Positions 33,945 to 38,950 of a stretch of 64,000 nt of DNA are shown here, piece after piece (positions within the stretch are counted from its first letter, which is position 1; each line of letters starts with the position of its first letter). Source of the DNA: Gammaproteobacteria bacterium (lineage in GTDB: Bacteria; Pseudomonadota; Gammaproteobacteria; UBA6429; Thiohalophilaceae). The notes under the pieces were generated by a model. It ran no database searches, was not told the origin of the DNA, and saw only the letters and a list, made by a program, of their open reading frames with translations. The stretch lies in contig JACQBC010000011.1 in NCBI GenBank assembly GCA_016194635.1, positions 62,001 to 126,000 of the forward strand, given 5' to 3'. Both the position numbers and the translations under genes were made by a program.

Positions 33945-34166
33945 CGTTGCCTCGCGGGTGGGGCGCAGTATCGCCTGCGGTGAATTATATCGCCAGAGGC
34001 GAGATAACGGTCAATTAAACTGCCAACCGAGGACAACACTAATCACAGTTTTCCAGTGAAGTTCCTGCCCGACTCGGTAATGGCCTTCATAAGATTATGT
34101 GCATAGGCTTAGCGGTGCATTAACGCAGGTTAATCCCGGACCTTGTCAGGCGGCCGATAGCCTTTT

Positions 34167-34382: not shown

Positions 34383-34949
34383 ATGCAGCAACAAAGCAAG
34401 AACTGGGCTGGGCAAGGGTGTGCCGCGGTACTGATGGGATGGATGTCGTTTGCGCAAGCCGGGGATATCACCCCGGTCATGCAAAAGAAAATTGATGCCT
34501 ACAAGACCAAGGCCATCGAGTGGGCGGCAACTCCCGCGCTGGTACAAGCGGTTCAGGCGGCCAACACCGCGGGCCCCGTCACGGGCTTGGGTAACGCCAA
34601 GTGGCGCGAGCTTAAAGAAACCGATCCCCTGGTAACCGGTTTTATCACCAACCCCACCGGTCAGTTGGTCACGCAATGGTTAAATGCCGATGCGAAGAGC
34701 ATCAACAAAATCGTGGTGTCCGGCAATAAAAGCCAGCGGGTGGCGTTTACCTCGATGCCGGCGGTTTACATCGGCAAGGGCAAACCCAATTTTGATGAAG
34801 CCTTTGACGGCAAGCTCTGGCAACAGCCTGAATCCAAACCCGACCCCAGTACCAATATCGACACGGTGCAAATCGCGGCACCGATCAAAAGCGGTGACAG
34901 CGTCATCGGTGTGCTGCTCATCAGCCTCAGTACCGACGGCCTAAAATAG
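34383..34949 (+). CDS. Periplasmic Cache/PAS-like sensor protein
   Basis: A 188-residue secreted protein. The signal peptide covers about residues 1-26, ending FAQA. After a helix, residues 65-185 have the order LVTGFITNPTGQLVTQW, KINKIVV, VAFTSMPAVYIGKG and SGDSVIGVLLISLS, the pattern of a single Cache or extracytoplasmic PAS domain, which usually binds small organic acids. It has no membrane anchor or output domain, so it may bind substrate for the transporter that follows. GGAGGAG precedes the ATG at 34383. It is 57 bases from the transporter gene. Confidence 0.6.
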   Translation: MQQQSKNWAGQGCAAVLMGWMSFAQAGDITPVMQKKIDAYKTKAIEWAATPALVQAVQAANTAGPVTGLGNAKWRELKETDPLVTGFITNPTGQLVTQWLNADAKSINKIVVSGNKSQRVAFTSMPAVYIGKGKPNFDEAFDGKLWQQPESKPDPSTNIDTVQIAAPIKSGDSVIGVLLISLSTDGLK

Positions 34950-35006
34950 CCGCACATCTAAAAATCTATTGCAGCCCTAATCAACAACAAACGGAGAACT
35001 ACAACC

Positions 35007-36536
35007 ATGGTTGATCAAACTGTCGCAGCCAGTACAACGTTTTTCGGGCGCTTTGCCGCCAATATTCGTGATTCAGGTCGAACCCCACGCAAGACGGTGA
35101 TTGGTTTTGCGCTCGCTTGGGCGGTGTTTTTCTATATTTTGTACCTCATGCCACTACCGGCGGGTATGACAGCGCCTGGTAAAGCCACTCTGGCGGTGAT
35201 GGTGTGGGCCTGCATCATGTGGATCTTCGAGGCCGTACCCGTCGGAATCTCCGGCATGTTGATCCCGGCCTTGTTGGTGTTGACCCACGGGGTGGATAAA
35301 TTTCCAATTGCCACCAAGGGTTTTGGTACGCCGGTGGTGTTTCTGTGTCTGGCCGCGTTTATCTTCGCCGCGATCATGCAAGCGGCGGGTTTGGATCGGC
35401 GCATCGCCTTGTCATTGTTACATAAGATGAAGGTCAAGACCGTCAACGGGGTGATCTGGGCGATGTTCGCGGTCAACATGGTGTTGTCGTTGATCATTCC
35501 CGCTGCCAACGCACGAGCGGCAACCTTGTTGCCGGTGATTAACGGTATTACGAAATTATTCGGCGATACGCCGGAAGAACGCAACGGTAAAAAAGCCATC
35601 GTGATCCAAACCCTGGTGTACGGCTCGATGATCAGCGGCATGTGTATTATCACGGCGCATTTGCCCAATTTTGTGTTGGTACAGTTGTTTGAAACCGAGT
35701 TGGCGGTGCATATCTCGTACATTGATTGGTTCAAATTGCAGTGGCCTTATCTAGGGATGTTTGTCATTACCCAGTGGTGGGTGCAACATTATTTTAAGAC
35801 CCGCAAGGTCAGCGTGCACGGCGGATTTGAAACCGTGCAGCGTCAATATAATGAATTACCCAAGACCAGCCAGAGCGAGTGGATGATTTTATTGGTGTTC
35901 GCTATCGTGGCGCTGTTGTGGGTTACCGAAAACGGTGTTGGCGCATGGAAGGGTCACGGGATTAAATCTCACAATGCCGCGATGCTGGGATTGGCGATCA
36001 TTTTTATTCCTGGATTATTCGGTTTTAAATGGAAGGAATTGCAGGATCGGACCATCTGGGGCACCTTTTTGTTGTTGGGCGGCGCCCTGTCGATGTCGGA
36101 TGCCATGTCGAGTTCGGGACTGGCTAAATATCTCTCCGATGTCATTCACCCGATCGCCGCCGGCCATGGCTGGTGGTTGACCCTGCTGATCTTGATGGTG
36201 GGTACACACATTATTCGCCTGGGGATGTTATCCAACGTGGCGGCCATCACCATGCTCGCGCCGATCCTATTGGCGCTCGCCCCCAAGCTCGGTCTGCATC
36301 CGGTGGCCTTTACGATGTTGGTGTCCGATACCGATTCATTTGCCTATCTGCTGCCCACCCAGATCACGGCGGCGGTGATCGCGTACAGCAGCGGTACCTT
36401 TAGCATGGTGGATTATGCGCGGGTTGGCTGGGTATCGGTGTTGATCGCGATTGCCTACGGTATTTGTATCATGGCGCCGTGGTATGCGTTTATGGGTATT
36501 CCGTTGTGGAATCCAACTGCACCCATGCCCTTCTGA
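35007..36536 (+). CDS. SLC13/DASS-family anion transporter
   Basis: A 509-residue inner-membrane protein with about twelve hydrophobic segments, of the divalent-anion:sodium symporter family (dicarboxylates, sulfate, sulfonates). The second substrate and sodium motif is clear (MLSNVAAITMLAPI); the first, normally SNT, reads AANARAATLLPVI, so the substrate site is altered. TEW-like residues of citrate or succinate carriers are not obvious. It sits between a Cache-like periplasmic protein and a cytoplasmic PHP hydrolase, so it probably imports the compound that hydrolase acts on. Confidence 0.8.
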   Translation: MVDQTVAASTTFFGRFAANIRDSGRTPRKTVIGFALAWAVFFYILYLMPLPAGMTAPGKATLAVMVWACIMWIFEAVPVGISGMLIPALLVLTHGVDKFPIATKGFGTPVVFLCLAAFIFAAIMQAAGLDRRIALSLLHKMKVKTVNGVIWAMFAVNMVLSLIIPAANARAATLLPVINGITKLFGDTPEERNGKKAIVIQTLVYGSMISGMCIITAHLPNFVLVQLFETELAVHISYIDWFKLQWPYLGMFVITQWWVQHYFKTRKVSVHGGFETVQRQYNELPKTSQSEWMILLVFAIVALLWVTENGVGAWKGHGIKSHNAAMLGLAIIFIPGLFGFKWKELQDRTIWGTFLLLGGALSMSDAMSSSGLAKYLSDVIHPIAAGHGWWLTLLILMVGTHIIRLGMLSNVAAITMLAPILLALAPKLGLHPVAFTMLVSDTDSFAYLLPTQITAAVIAYSSGTFSMVDYARVGWVSVLIAIAYGICIMAPWYAFMGIPLWNPTAPMPF

Positions 36537-36565
36537 TTTAGTAACAACAAAAAAAGGTAGTCGCA

Positions 36566-38950
36566 ATGAAAAAAATGTCTGACACCGAGCTTAAAGCCAA
36601 GCTCGGTGATTACACCGCCCCCCTGGGGTTGTATCAACATAGCAAAGACTTGCCTTTTTTAGGCAAGGTGAACTGTAACGTGGAGTCGATCGTCGCGGGA
36701 TCGTGGCAAGAGATCGTGATCGACTATGAATTGGGCGCGGCCGGTATGGCCGACGGTTCCTGGTTCAAGGCCACGTTCCGGTTTTATTCGGACTGGGCCT
36801 TGTTTCAAACCACCGACCCGGCCGGGGCCAACTATGTCAGCGCCGAATATCACGCCGGCCCGTTGCAACCTGGTCAGTCGCCCGCGACCGTGCAATATTT
36901 AAAAGTCCGGTTTGATCAAAAAGGCCACGAGCGTCCGTTTCAAAAAGCGATCATCGTCGATACCTTCGACGGTTTTTTGAAGGCCGGTGATCACATTATT
37001 ATTCGCCTAGGTGATCGGCGTTTTGGCGGCGCCGGCACCCGCGTGCAAACCTTCGTGGAAGAGAACTTCCGCTTTCGCTGTTACGTCGACCCGCTGGGAA
37101 CCTCGCGCTTTGCGGCGGTGAATCCCGATTTAATCGTGCAAATCGTTCCCGGCGCCCCCGCCCAGCTGCAGTTCGCGGCATCCCGTATTGTCAAACAAGG
37201 TGAGAAATTTCCGCTGCGGATCCGCGCCGAGGATCAATGGGGCAATACCTGCTGGGACCGCGCCGATACGATTACTATCAACGCCAGCTTGAACGGCAAG
37301 CCCTGTTACCAGAAAACCACCACGCTCGCCGCCAAGGGGTGGTCGGTGGTAATGTTGGAGGATTTACCCACGACTACGGCCGGGGAGCTGGCGATCAGCG
37401 CGAGCTTACCGCAACACCCCTGGGTCAAGCCCCAGAGCTTTTATGTCACCATCGACAAATCCCTGGATGTGCCGCGGATCTTTTATTGCGATTTACACGT
37501 GCATTCCGAGGACACCATCGGCACCAATTCGACCACCTACAATTTAACCTATGGGCGCGACGTCACCGGCCTGGACGTATTGGCGTTCGCGCACAACGAT
37601 TTCAACATCACCACCGAGCGCTGGCAGCAAACCGTGAAGTTGATCAGACAAATCACCCAAGACGGCAGTTTCGTGGCCTATCCCGGTACCGAGTGGTGCG
37701 GTTCGAGTTGCGCCGGCGGTGATCATAACGTGGTGTTCTTGCACGATAACGAACCCGAGTTTCCATTTTTAAAAAGCGGCGAACACGTGCGTTCGGTGGA
37801 ATGGAACGAAGACATGAAATCCGGATCGGTGTCGCCGGGGGCCTGGCCCTTGGAAGAACTCTGGGCGGCCTACGCCAACGATCCCGAGGGGCATTTGTTG
37901 ATTCCGCACGTCGGTGGACGGCGTTGTATCTTGGATTGGCATTACCCCAAGCTGGAGCGTTTGATCGAAATCGGCTCCTCCTGGGGACATTTCGGCTGGC
38001 TGTATCAAGAGGCCATGGAGCGCGGTTACAAGATCGGCGCGTCGATGGCGGGTGACGAACACCGTGGCCGTTGCGGCGGCGGTGTGCCTGGGACAGCGGT
38101 ATTCGGTACCAAGGGTGGGATCTCCGGTGTGATCGCGCCATCATTAACCCGTAAGGCGATTGCCAAGGCCCTGCGTGAACGCCACACCTTTGCTTCCACC
38201 GGTGAGCGCACGTTTGGCGTGGTGCGTTGCGGCAAGCAACTCATGGGTGACGAATTTGAACATCAAGGTCCGGCACGGCTGGATTACCGTTTCCTCGGCG
38301 AGGCGGGCTGGGATGAGATCGTCGCGTTTGATCACACCGGCGAAATCTGGCGGCGTGATCTGCAACAAGAACTAGGCTACTCCGAGCGTAAAATCCGTTT
38401 ACGCTGGGGCGGGGCGCGCGTCAAAGACCGTTACCGATGGGCGGTGTGGAAGGGCACGATCACCATCAGCAATGCGGTGATCAATAATTTCACCGGCCGG
38501 GGATTCGAGCATATGGAAGAAACCTGCTGGCGGCAAAGCGCCACGCAGATCGGTTTTAAGAGTGATACCTACGGTGATATCGATACCATCGAGATCGATG
38601 TATCGCAGCTCAAGACCGCGACGATCCGCGTCGAGGGCACGATCGACGGCTACGTCAAGGTGGGTGACCCACTCAAGGGTAATCCGTTTGTGCATTGCCC
38701 GCGGTTCGAATGGGAAATTAGCGGTGCCGAGCTACTCGCCGGCGCTAAGCTAAAATACGATCTCCCCGGTGTCGAGATGTTTCTGGCGCTGGAACGCATG
38801 AGCGAAACACCCGCACCGCGCGAGGTCACCGGACAGATCGAGATCAGCCCAAAAAACGGCCCGCACGGTCATCGCCCAGTGTATGTGTTCGCGCGCCAGA
38901 TCGACGACGCCAAGATTTGGACCTCGGGTTTATTTATTACCTTCAAGTGA
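36566..38950 (+). CDS. Large PHP-type metallohydrolase with beta-sandwich domains
   Basis: A 794-residue protein without signal peptide, so cytoplasmic. Residues 1-300 are beta-rich, with an Ig-like stretch at about 190-300 (SRIVKQGEKFPLRIRAEDQWGN). A PHP-like catalytic domain follows: FYCDLHVHSED near 310, LAFAHNDFN near 340, YPGTEWCGSS near 375, GGDHNVVFL, LLIPHVGGRR near 450 and SMAGDEHRGR near 495. These give the expected His, Asp and Glu metal ligands. The C terminus is again beta-rich. It resembles DUF3604-type proteins. The substrate is unknown. It is the last gene after the transporter. Confidence 0.7.
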   Translation: MKKMSDTELKAKLGDYTAPLGLYQHSKDLPFLGKVNCNVESIVAGSWQEIVIDYELGAAGMADGSWFKATFRFYSDWALFQTTDPAGANYVSAEYHAGPLQPGQSPATVQYLKVRFDQKGHERPFQKAIIVDTFDGFLKAGDHIIIRLGDRRFGGAGTRVQTFVEENFRFRCYVDPLGTSRFAAVNPDLIVQIVPGAPAQLQFAASRIVKQGEKFPLRIRAEDQWGNTCWDRADTITINASLNGKPCYQKTTTLAAKGWSVVMLEDLPTTTAGELAISASLPQHPWVKPQSFYVTIDKSLDVPRIFYCDLHVHSEDTIGTNSTTYNLTYGRDVTGLDVLAFAHNDFNITTERWQQTVKLIRQITQDGSFVAYPGTEWCGSSCAGGDHNVVFLHDNEPEFPFLKSGEHVRSVEWNEDMKSGSVSPGAWPLEELWAAYANDPEGHLLIPHVGGRRCILDWHYPKLERLIEIGSSWGHFGWLYQEAMERGYKIGASMAGDEHRGRCGGGVPGTAVFGTKGGISGVIAPSLTRKAIAKALRERHTFASTGERTFGVVRCGKQLMGDEFEHQGPARLDYRFLGEAGWDEIVAFDHTGEIWRRDLQQELGYSERKIRLRWGGARVKDRYRWAVWKGTITISNAVINNFTGRGFEHMEETCWRQSATQIGFKSDTYGDIDTIEIDVSQLKTATIRVEGTIDGYVKVGDPLKGNPFVHCPRFEWEISGAELLAGAKLKYDLPGVEMFLALERMSETPAPREVTGQIEISPKNGPHGHRPVYVFARQIDDAKIWTSGLFITFK

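Follow-up and report, generated by a model that had tools for sequence, protein, structure and literature searches.

Locus and question

Whether a pathway of uptake and hydrolysis is encoded, and for which compound, was the question raised by three genes on a 64,000-nucleotide stretch of DNA (the window) from a gammaproteobacterium of the Thiohalophilaceae (assembly GCA_016194635.1, contig JACQBC010000011.1, positions 62,001 to 126,000 of the forward strand). A sequence-only reading had described a Cache-like protein, an SLC13 transporter and a large PHP hydrolase by which an organic anion would be captured, imported and hydrolysed. The three genes are real and as described, lying head to tail on the + strand with intergenic gaps of 57 and 29 bp (table 1); the open reading frame (ORF) of the Cache-like protein starts at either 34365 or 34383, and the latter, which follows GGAGGAG, is the better start. 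The window genome (3.7 Mb over 37 contigs) carries DsrA and SoxB genes above curated cut-offs and the organism is therefore a sulfur oxidiser by gene content. Transporter and hydrolase were found to belong to a well-supported importer–hydrolase module in which the importer is swapped among unrelated types.

Table 1. Features of the locus in window coordinates.
Feature	Position	Strand	Basis
Crp/Fnr-type regulator, divergent, 240 aa	33222..33944	-	Pfam cNMP_binding 3.2e-18, HTH_Crp_2 1.4e-18
Degenerate copy of conserved operator, core TGTCAGGCGGCCGATA 34144-34159	34142..34161	.	score 7.7
Periplasmic single-Cache protein, accessory	34383..34949	+	ORF, fold match
DASS/SLC13-family anion transporter, type 1, PAANARAA / SNV motifs	35007..36536	+	
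PHP/DUF3604-type putative metallohydrolase, 794 aa, predicted cytoplasmic	36566..38950	+	Pfam, AlphaFold model, fold match
Hydrolase N-terminal beta-sandwich (Ig/FnIII-like), residues 31-300	36656..37465	+	VIA-align rows
Predicted hydrolase PHP core, residues 303-547	37472..38206	+	structure matches 2anu, 3e38, 7rty; conservation

Pairing of importer and hydrolase

Close homologues of the hydrolase (66–85% identical) were found at 73 proteobacterial loci of a GTDB-based collection, and 65 of these were typed for their importers, the other eight being omitted because fewer than 600 hydrolase residues were present. An anion importer accompanied the hydrolase at 61 of the 65 typed loci: 30 had a transporter of the window's type (DASS1), 19 the tripartite TctABC system, eight a second type (DASS2, about 28% identical to DASS1) and four an ABC importer of SsuA/TauA-like type, whose binding protein was nearest to SsuA-type sulfonate binders, below the cut-off. 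The importer was encoded upstream on the hydrolase strand in 58/65 loci, usually 14–216 bp away; it was separated by a gap of 1.2–1.5 kb in five loci and lay across the regulator gene in three (L068, L082 and L096). Three of the four importer-less loci were at contig ends with less than 700 bp upstream, and one (L071) truly had none, with a TauE gene downstream of the hydrolase. Parsimony on the hydrolase tree required at least nine changes of importer among the four types, counted with the Methylosinus row omitted (long branch), importer-less rows uncounted and branch support from the Shimodaira–Hasegawa-like approximate likelihood ratio test only. Non-homologous importers are thus exchanged beside the same hydrolase, and the pathway does not depend on a single transporter type.

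Hydrolase matches were present in 21 of 144 related genomes; 20 of them were close and served as the hydrolase-positive set, from which G132 (30% identical) was excluded. DASS1 (E ≤ 1e-80) occurred in 6/144 of these genomes, each time sharing a contig with the hydrolase. The pairing was also kept in 4/4 further genomes with hydrolases of 51–62% identity, which carried TctABC with Crp and the gene c3 described below, DASS1 with a GntR regulator and, twice, an ABC importer with GntR. A phylum-wide search (1e-20) matched 4 additional genomes of 398, a figure that understates distant relatives since at most two candidates per genome were scored. Carriers included Thiobacillus thioparus, Thiobacillus denitrificans, Sulfuritalea, Thiohalocapsa, Acidiferrobacterales, Rhodomicrobium and many Beta- and Gammaproteobacteria, several of the named ones being sulfur oxidisers.

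Plasmid records held 61 further relatives, mostly from Rhizobium (19), Klebsiella (15) and Azospirillum (9). The main group was 51–55% identical over almost the full length; at its 13 annotated loci (about 52–55%) an ABC importer was adjacent in 9 and a GntR regulator divergent in 11; the single regulator tested has a UTRA ligand domain. A second plasmid group, 26–29% identical, came from Sulfitobacter, Agrobacterium, Natrinema and others. Six annotated distant loci included three with TctABC and one with a GntR–ABC set.

Window transporter and Cache-like protein

The window transporter scored over the TIGR00785 cut-off (205.5 versus 198.6 bits) and matched Na_sulph_symp at 1.8e-67. Its first SNT-type motif reads AAN (PAANARAA), as had been noticed, and its second SNV, in place of two SNT motifs; the first motif is AAN or AAV in other transporters of this type. 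By profile it stays a divergent DASS/SLC13 member, and sodium coupling is doubtful because of the two altered motifs.

The Cache-like protein has a signal peptide-like start and no apparent C-terminal membrane helix. A Pfam scan gave no Cache match; the predicted model (mean predicted local distance difference test score, pLDDT, 77.5) nevertheless matched the single Cache/PDC sensor domains of CitA (2j80; Z 13.1, root mean square deviation (rmsd) 2.7, 125 residues) and DcuS (3by8; Z 12.9), which bears out the earlier label. Homologues were found by tblastn in 19/73 hydrolase loci (18/65 typed loci), and relatives of 33–37% identity in 8/144 genomes, only three of which (G000, G035 and G084) hold the hydrolase. 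The trio of Cache protein, transporter and hydrolase was therefore rejected as a fixed unit, and the Cache protein is an accessory rather than a core part. Co-occurrence elsewhere, on which the sequence-only reading had staked its proposal, holds widely for transporter and hydrolase, and the full set of three is found again at 18 other typed loci. Import and hydrolysis of an organic anion thus retain support; capture by the Cache protein does not belong to the core. Its resemblance to citrate and dicarboxylate sensors makes a carboxylate group in the ligand plausible, and a sulfo-carboxylate would suit every importer type.

The hydrolase

The 794-residue protein is a putative metal-dependent hydrolase with a predicted PHP-fold core. 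It is strongly conserved (mean column identity 83%, 59 sequences) and hence not a chance ORF, and is predicted to be cytoplasmic since neither a signal peptide nor a membrane helix was apparent. It passed the cut-off of Pfam DUF3604 (PF12228; 30.1 versus 20.4 bits). The Pfam PHP profile PF02811 left it unmatched, both as a protein and in a search of its own genome that listed two other loci. An AlphaFold model built from 59 sequences had a mean pLDDT of 75.9, with values below 50 in several active-site loops (379–385, 408–427, 449–453 and 497–516). In this model residues 303–547 matched TM0559 (2anu; Z 16.4, rmsd 3.0, 196 residues), BVU_3505 (3e38; Z 14.7) and PsfC (7rty; Z 12.6), and residues 31–300 aligned to Ig-like beta domains. 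Foldseek alone put beta-sandwich proteins on top, with no PHP structures among its best 50. Neither the protein nor the alignment found a meaningful match when searched against the sequences of solved structures.

Among 79 aligned hydrolases (26–85% identity), D309, H311, N344, D345, E376, D386, H448, D497 and H499 were invariant, H313 was replaced by Q in seven distant members, and H343 and H387 varied across the wider family. The earlier claim that all PHP metal motifs are present stands with a reservation: the residues can be placed in motifs, and the second motif is HND, with H343 and H387 not invariant. The usual second PHP motif is TDH. Throughout the family (H)ND takes its place, and distant relatives have HxQ for HxH, which points to a change in the metal site. 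The architecture, called unusual before, is so among PHP enzymes and is that of the DUF3604 family.

Regulator and operator

The Crp-type regulator has a recognition helix of RQ type and conserves a WFCF stretch; a homologue was found near 48/65 typed hydrolase genes. The divergent promoters contain a CRP-like palindrome, TGTCG-N6-CGACA. With a matrix trained on 15 exact sites of this form, a significant site was found in 44/47 divergent promoters, 29 of the 32 untrained ones included, and in 0/47 coding controls of the same length. Passing regions were spread over the importer types (DASS1 19/21, TctABC 14/15, DASS2 4/4, ABC 2/2, no importer 1/1, others 4/4), and the failing ones were L067, L070 and L087. 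The score of the window's operator was reached by 0/100 mononucleotide and 1/60 dinucleotide shuffles of its own intergenic region; the best-scoring window site (638) falls within an ORF. Since hydrolase and regulator–operator pair are near-constant while importer types change, one shared ligand is suggested.

Of 20 distinct sites obtained in a scan of 14 genomes, eight lay at hydrolase loci. The 12 off-locus sites are near background, as a reversed control pattern gave eight matches. A perfect operator-like palindrome in the window genome (L155, site 1501; G000:C2:116810-116825) precedes an ankyrin-repeat gene and may be due to chance.

Link to sulfur metabolism

SoxB above its cut-off was present in 18/20 hydrolase-positive and 55/124 negative genomes. 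With one genome per family (n = 104), SoxB was found in 5/6 positive and 34/98 negative genomes (p 0.027) and DsrA in 6/6 and 31/98 (p 0.0015). Five of the 13 plasmid loci lie at most 9 kb from clear sulfur genes: soxC in one; SfnB, SfnG and MsuE in another; SsuD, a sulfonate binder, MsuE and SfnG in a third; TauE in a fourth; MsuE and an LLM enzyme in the last. A looser reading, adding NtaA/DmoA-type enzymes and a rhodanese with cysteine dioxygenase, gives 7/13. For comparison, four 50-kb stretches taken from four of these replicons contained 170 features and no such sulfur gene. Sulfur genes were also present at three of the six annotated distant loci (phosphosulfolactate synthase, TauE and a sulfate exporter).

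Several observations weigh against a role in sulfur metabolism or the control proposed for it. Within the window's own family neither SoxB (13/14 positive versus 21/26 negative genomes, p 0.30) nor DsrA (9/14 versus 22/26, p 0.97) is linked to the hydrolase, and the link to sulfur oxidisers is thus real across families, modest, and silent in this one. No sulfur gene is seen at six of the 13 plasmid loci (those of Klebsiella and Pantoea, and two from Azospirillum), the four Azospirillum loci are without a sulfonate-type importer beside the hydrolase gene, several of the 13 are near relatives of one another, and the categories of sulfur gene were set after the neighbours had been seen. The window's own operator is degenerate, and most relatives have a stronger one. 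For the most part, known PHP enzymes cleave phosphate esters.

Thiocyanate was tried as a general substrate and rejected: true ScnC was found in 2/20 hydrolase-positive and 3/124 negative genomes, and the G010 scn locus lacks the operator site. An operator-like palindrome at site 8914 of L179 (G094:C16:290000-305000) precedes an ABC transporter beside a thiocyanate hydrolase (TIGR03887, 384.8 bits); cobalt-uptake and LysR genes are also present there, and G094 has the hydrolase operon as well.

Interpretation and alternatives

Our reading, held with about equal confidence and doubt, is of a self-contained module that imports and hydrolyses a single small anion, with a small organosulfur anion as the likeliest class of substrate. 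The anion would cross the inner membrane inwards through an importer recruited by the lineage, here DASS/SLC13, with the Cache protein perhaps assisting import or sensing the anion in the periplasm. The cytoplasmic PHP/DUF3604 metalloenzyme would then hydrolyse it, and the divergent Crp-type regulator would control itself and the operon from a single CooA-like palindrome. The substrate may be a sulfonate, a sulfo-carboxylate or similar, from which hydrolysis would free a sulfur oxyanion or reduced sulfur to be burned by sulfur oxidisers and assimilated by heterotrophs. A bolder version, possible but tentative, is an unrecognised branch of sulfur metabolism in which the enzyme would free organosulfur sulfur hydrolytically, with at least four independent importer recruitments under one CooA-like operator. 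The freed sulfur would then supply lithotrophy in Thiobacillus, in Sulfuritalea and in purple sulfur bacteria, and assimilation in Rhizobium and on enterobacterial plasmids.

The enzyme could instead be a phosphoesterase, like most PHP enzymes, and the imported substrate an organic phosphate or a phosphonate-like anion. Its PHP core is similar to PsfC, a phosphatase of fosfomycin biosynthesis, and a PhnD-like binding protein (Phosphonate-bd 7.2e-27) is encoded near 9/65 loci; PhnD-type binders, however, carry many anions, and no phosphate or phosphonate catabolic gene was noticed among the annotated neighbours, while sulfur genes recur. The context of neighbours leans to sulfur over organic phosphate, and we consider a phosphoesterase unlikely.

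Cleavage of a C–N or ester bond (carbamate or amide), as by the carbaryl hydrolase CehA, would make the importer a carrier of carboxylates and the sulfur link incidental. Folds of DASS, TctABC and Cache (CitA, DcuS) are typical of carboxylates, amidase or amidohydrolase genes lie near several relatives (L109, L110 and L113), and NCBIfam CehA_McbA_metalo (NF038032) matches residues 308–603 weakly (1.5e-6, 27.9 bits). This score is far below the family cut-off of 80, as are those of the relatives (19–27.4 bits), and gene content marks most carriers as sulfur oxidisers, so that such an activity appears improbable.

A non-nutritional module, detoxifying or recycling an anion while the transporters import different things in each lineage, would account for non-homologous importers and for CHR-family genes between DASS and hydrolase (L044, L088), but is very unlikely given the near-constant hydrolase and regulator–operator pair, which argues for one ligand, and the substrate-binding protein-dependent importers TctABC and ABC, which by family are uptake systems.

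Other neighbours

A soluble binding-protein-like gene of about 300 residues (c3; SBP_bac_11 5.9e-15), with no apparent signal peptide, was found near 38/65 loci. At E < 1e-30, a threshold picked after the table had been seen, it occurred in 17/20 hydrolase-positive and 0/124 negative genomes; other genomes hold weaker relatives, and the window genome has none. The product (e.g. L036:12418-13389 and 32 other loci) is a cytoplasmic-looking relative of oxyanion-binding proteins with an SDGNHHMAL motif. The operator site also stands upstream of stand-alone c3 in L127 and, more weakly, in L125, and in L141 c3 adjoins a MOT1-type molybdate transporter gene.

PhnD-like periplasmic binding proteins also occur in tandem downstream of the hydrolase (the L073:07-09 cluster, with up to three, and L044:12693-13637). 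The gap between DASS and hydrolase is filled, by Pfam, with a CHR-family (chromate/sulfate-type) transporter at L044:8690-9907 and L088:8729-9964. The GntR–ABC–hydrolase operon is carried on enterobacterial plasmids of Klebsiella pneumoniae (L104 and L150) and Pantoea (L105 and L148), where the hydrolase is annotated as a hypothetical protein, and in the two Klebsiella records the operon is near insertion sequences.

Significance and comparison with known systems

All parts of the module are from known families. A literature search (open-licence PubMed Central only) found no description of the module, and DUF3604 appeared there in one unrelated paper. If the organosulfur reading is true, a testable function would be gained for a widespread gene now labelled hypothetical or DUF3604, three importer families would share a deducible ligand, and organosulfur use, mostly oxidative otherwise, would acquire a hydrolytic entry point. 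The swapping of importers is useful here, since DASS, TctC and SsuA-type sites must all accommodate the ligand.

Relatives of the hydrolase in public records carry the name DUF3604, for which we know of no function; the best-matching stretch of the window protein, however, spans only positions 376–425 of the 591 in that profile, and its first motif is HxH whereas distant relatives have HxQ. TM0559, BVU_3505 and PsfC are alike in predicted core fold, yet only 15–17% identical over the aligned part, and the second motif of the hydrolase, HND, sets it apart from known PHP enzymes. Unlike CehA/McbA, it has long N- and C-terminal beta-rich parts and an anion importer as partner.

A CMH-like stretch, as bears the heme ligands of CooA, is not obvious in the regulator consensus. 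The window regulator is closer to Mycobacterium tuberculosis CRP (2e-20) and NtcA (5e-19) than to CooA (8e-12). The module operator TGTCGGCTGGCCGACA nevertheless fits the CooA consensus of the coo operons, TGTCGGCNNGCCGACA, as published (PMC545781), but would govern an importer–hydrolase operon and not CO oxidation.

The ssu/tau/sfn islands likewise place an SsuA/TauA-type ABC importer beside a cytoplasmic enzyme, and some relatives of the hydrolase lie inside such islands. Their enzyme is a monooxygenase or dioxygenase, whereas here it is a putative metallohydrolase, and the importer is exchanged for DASS or TctABC.

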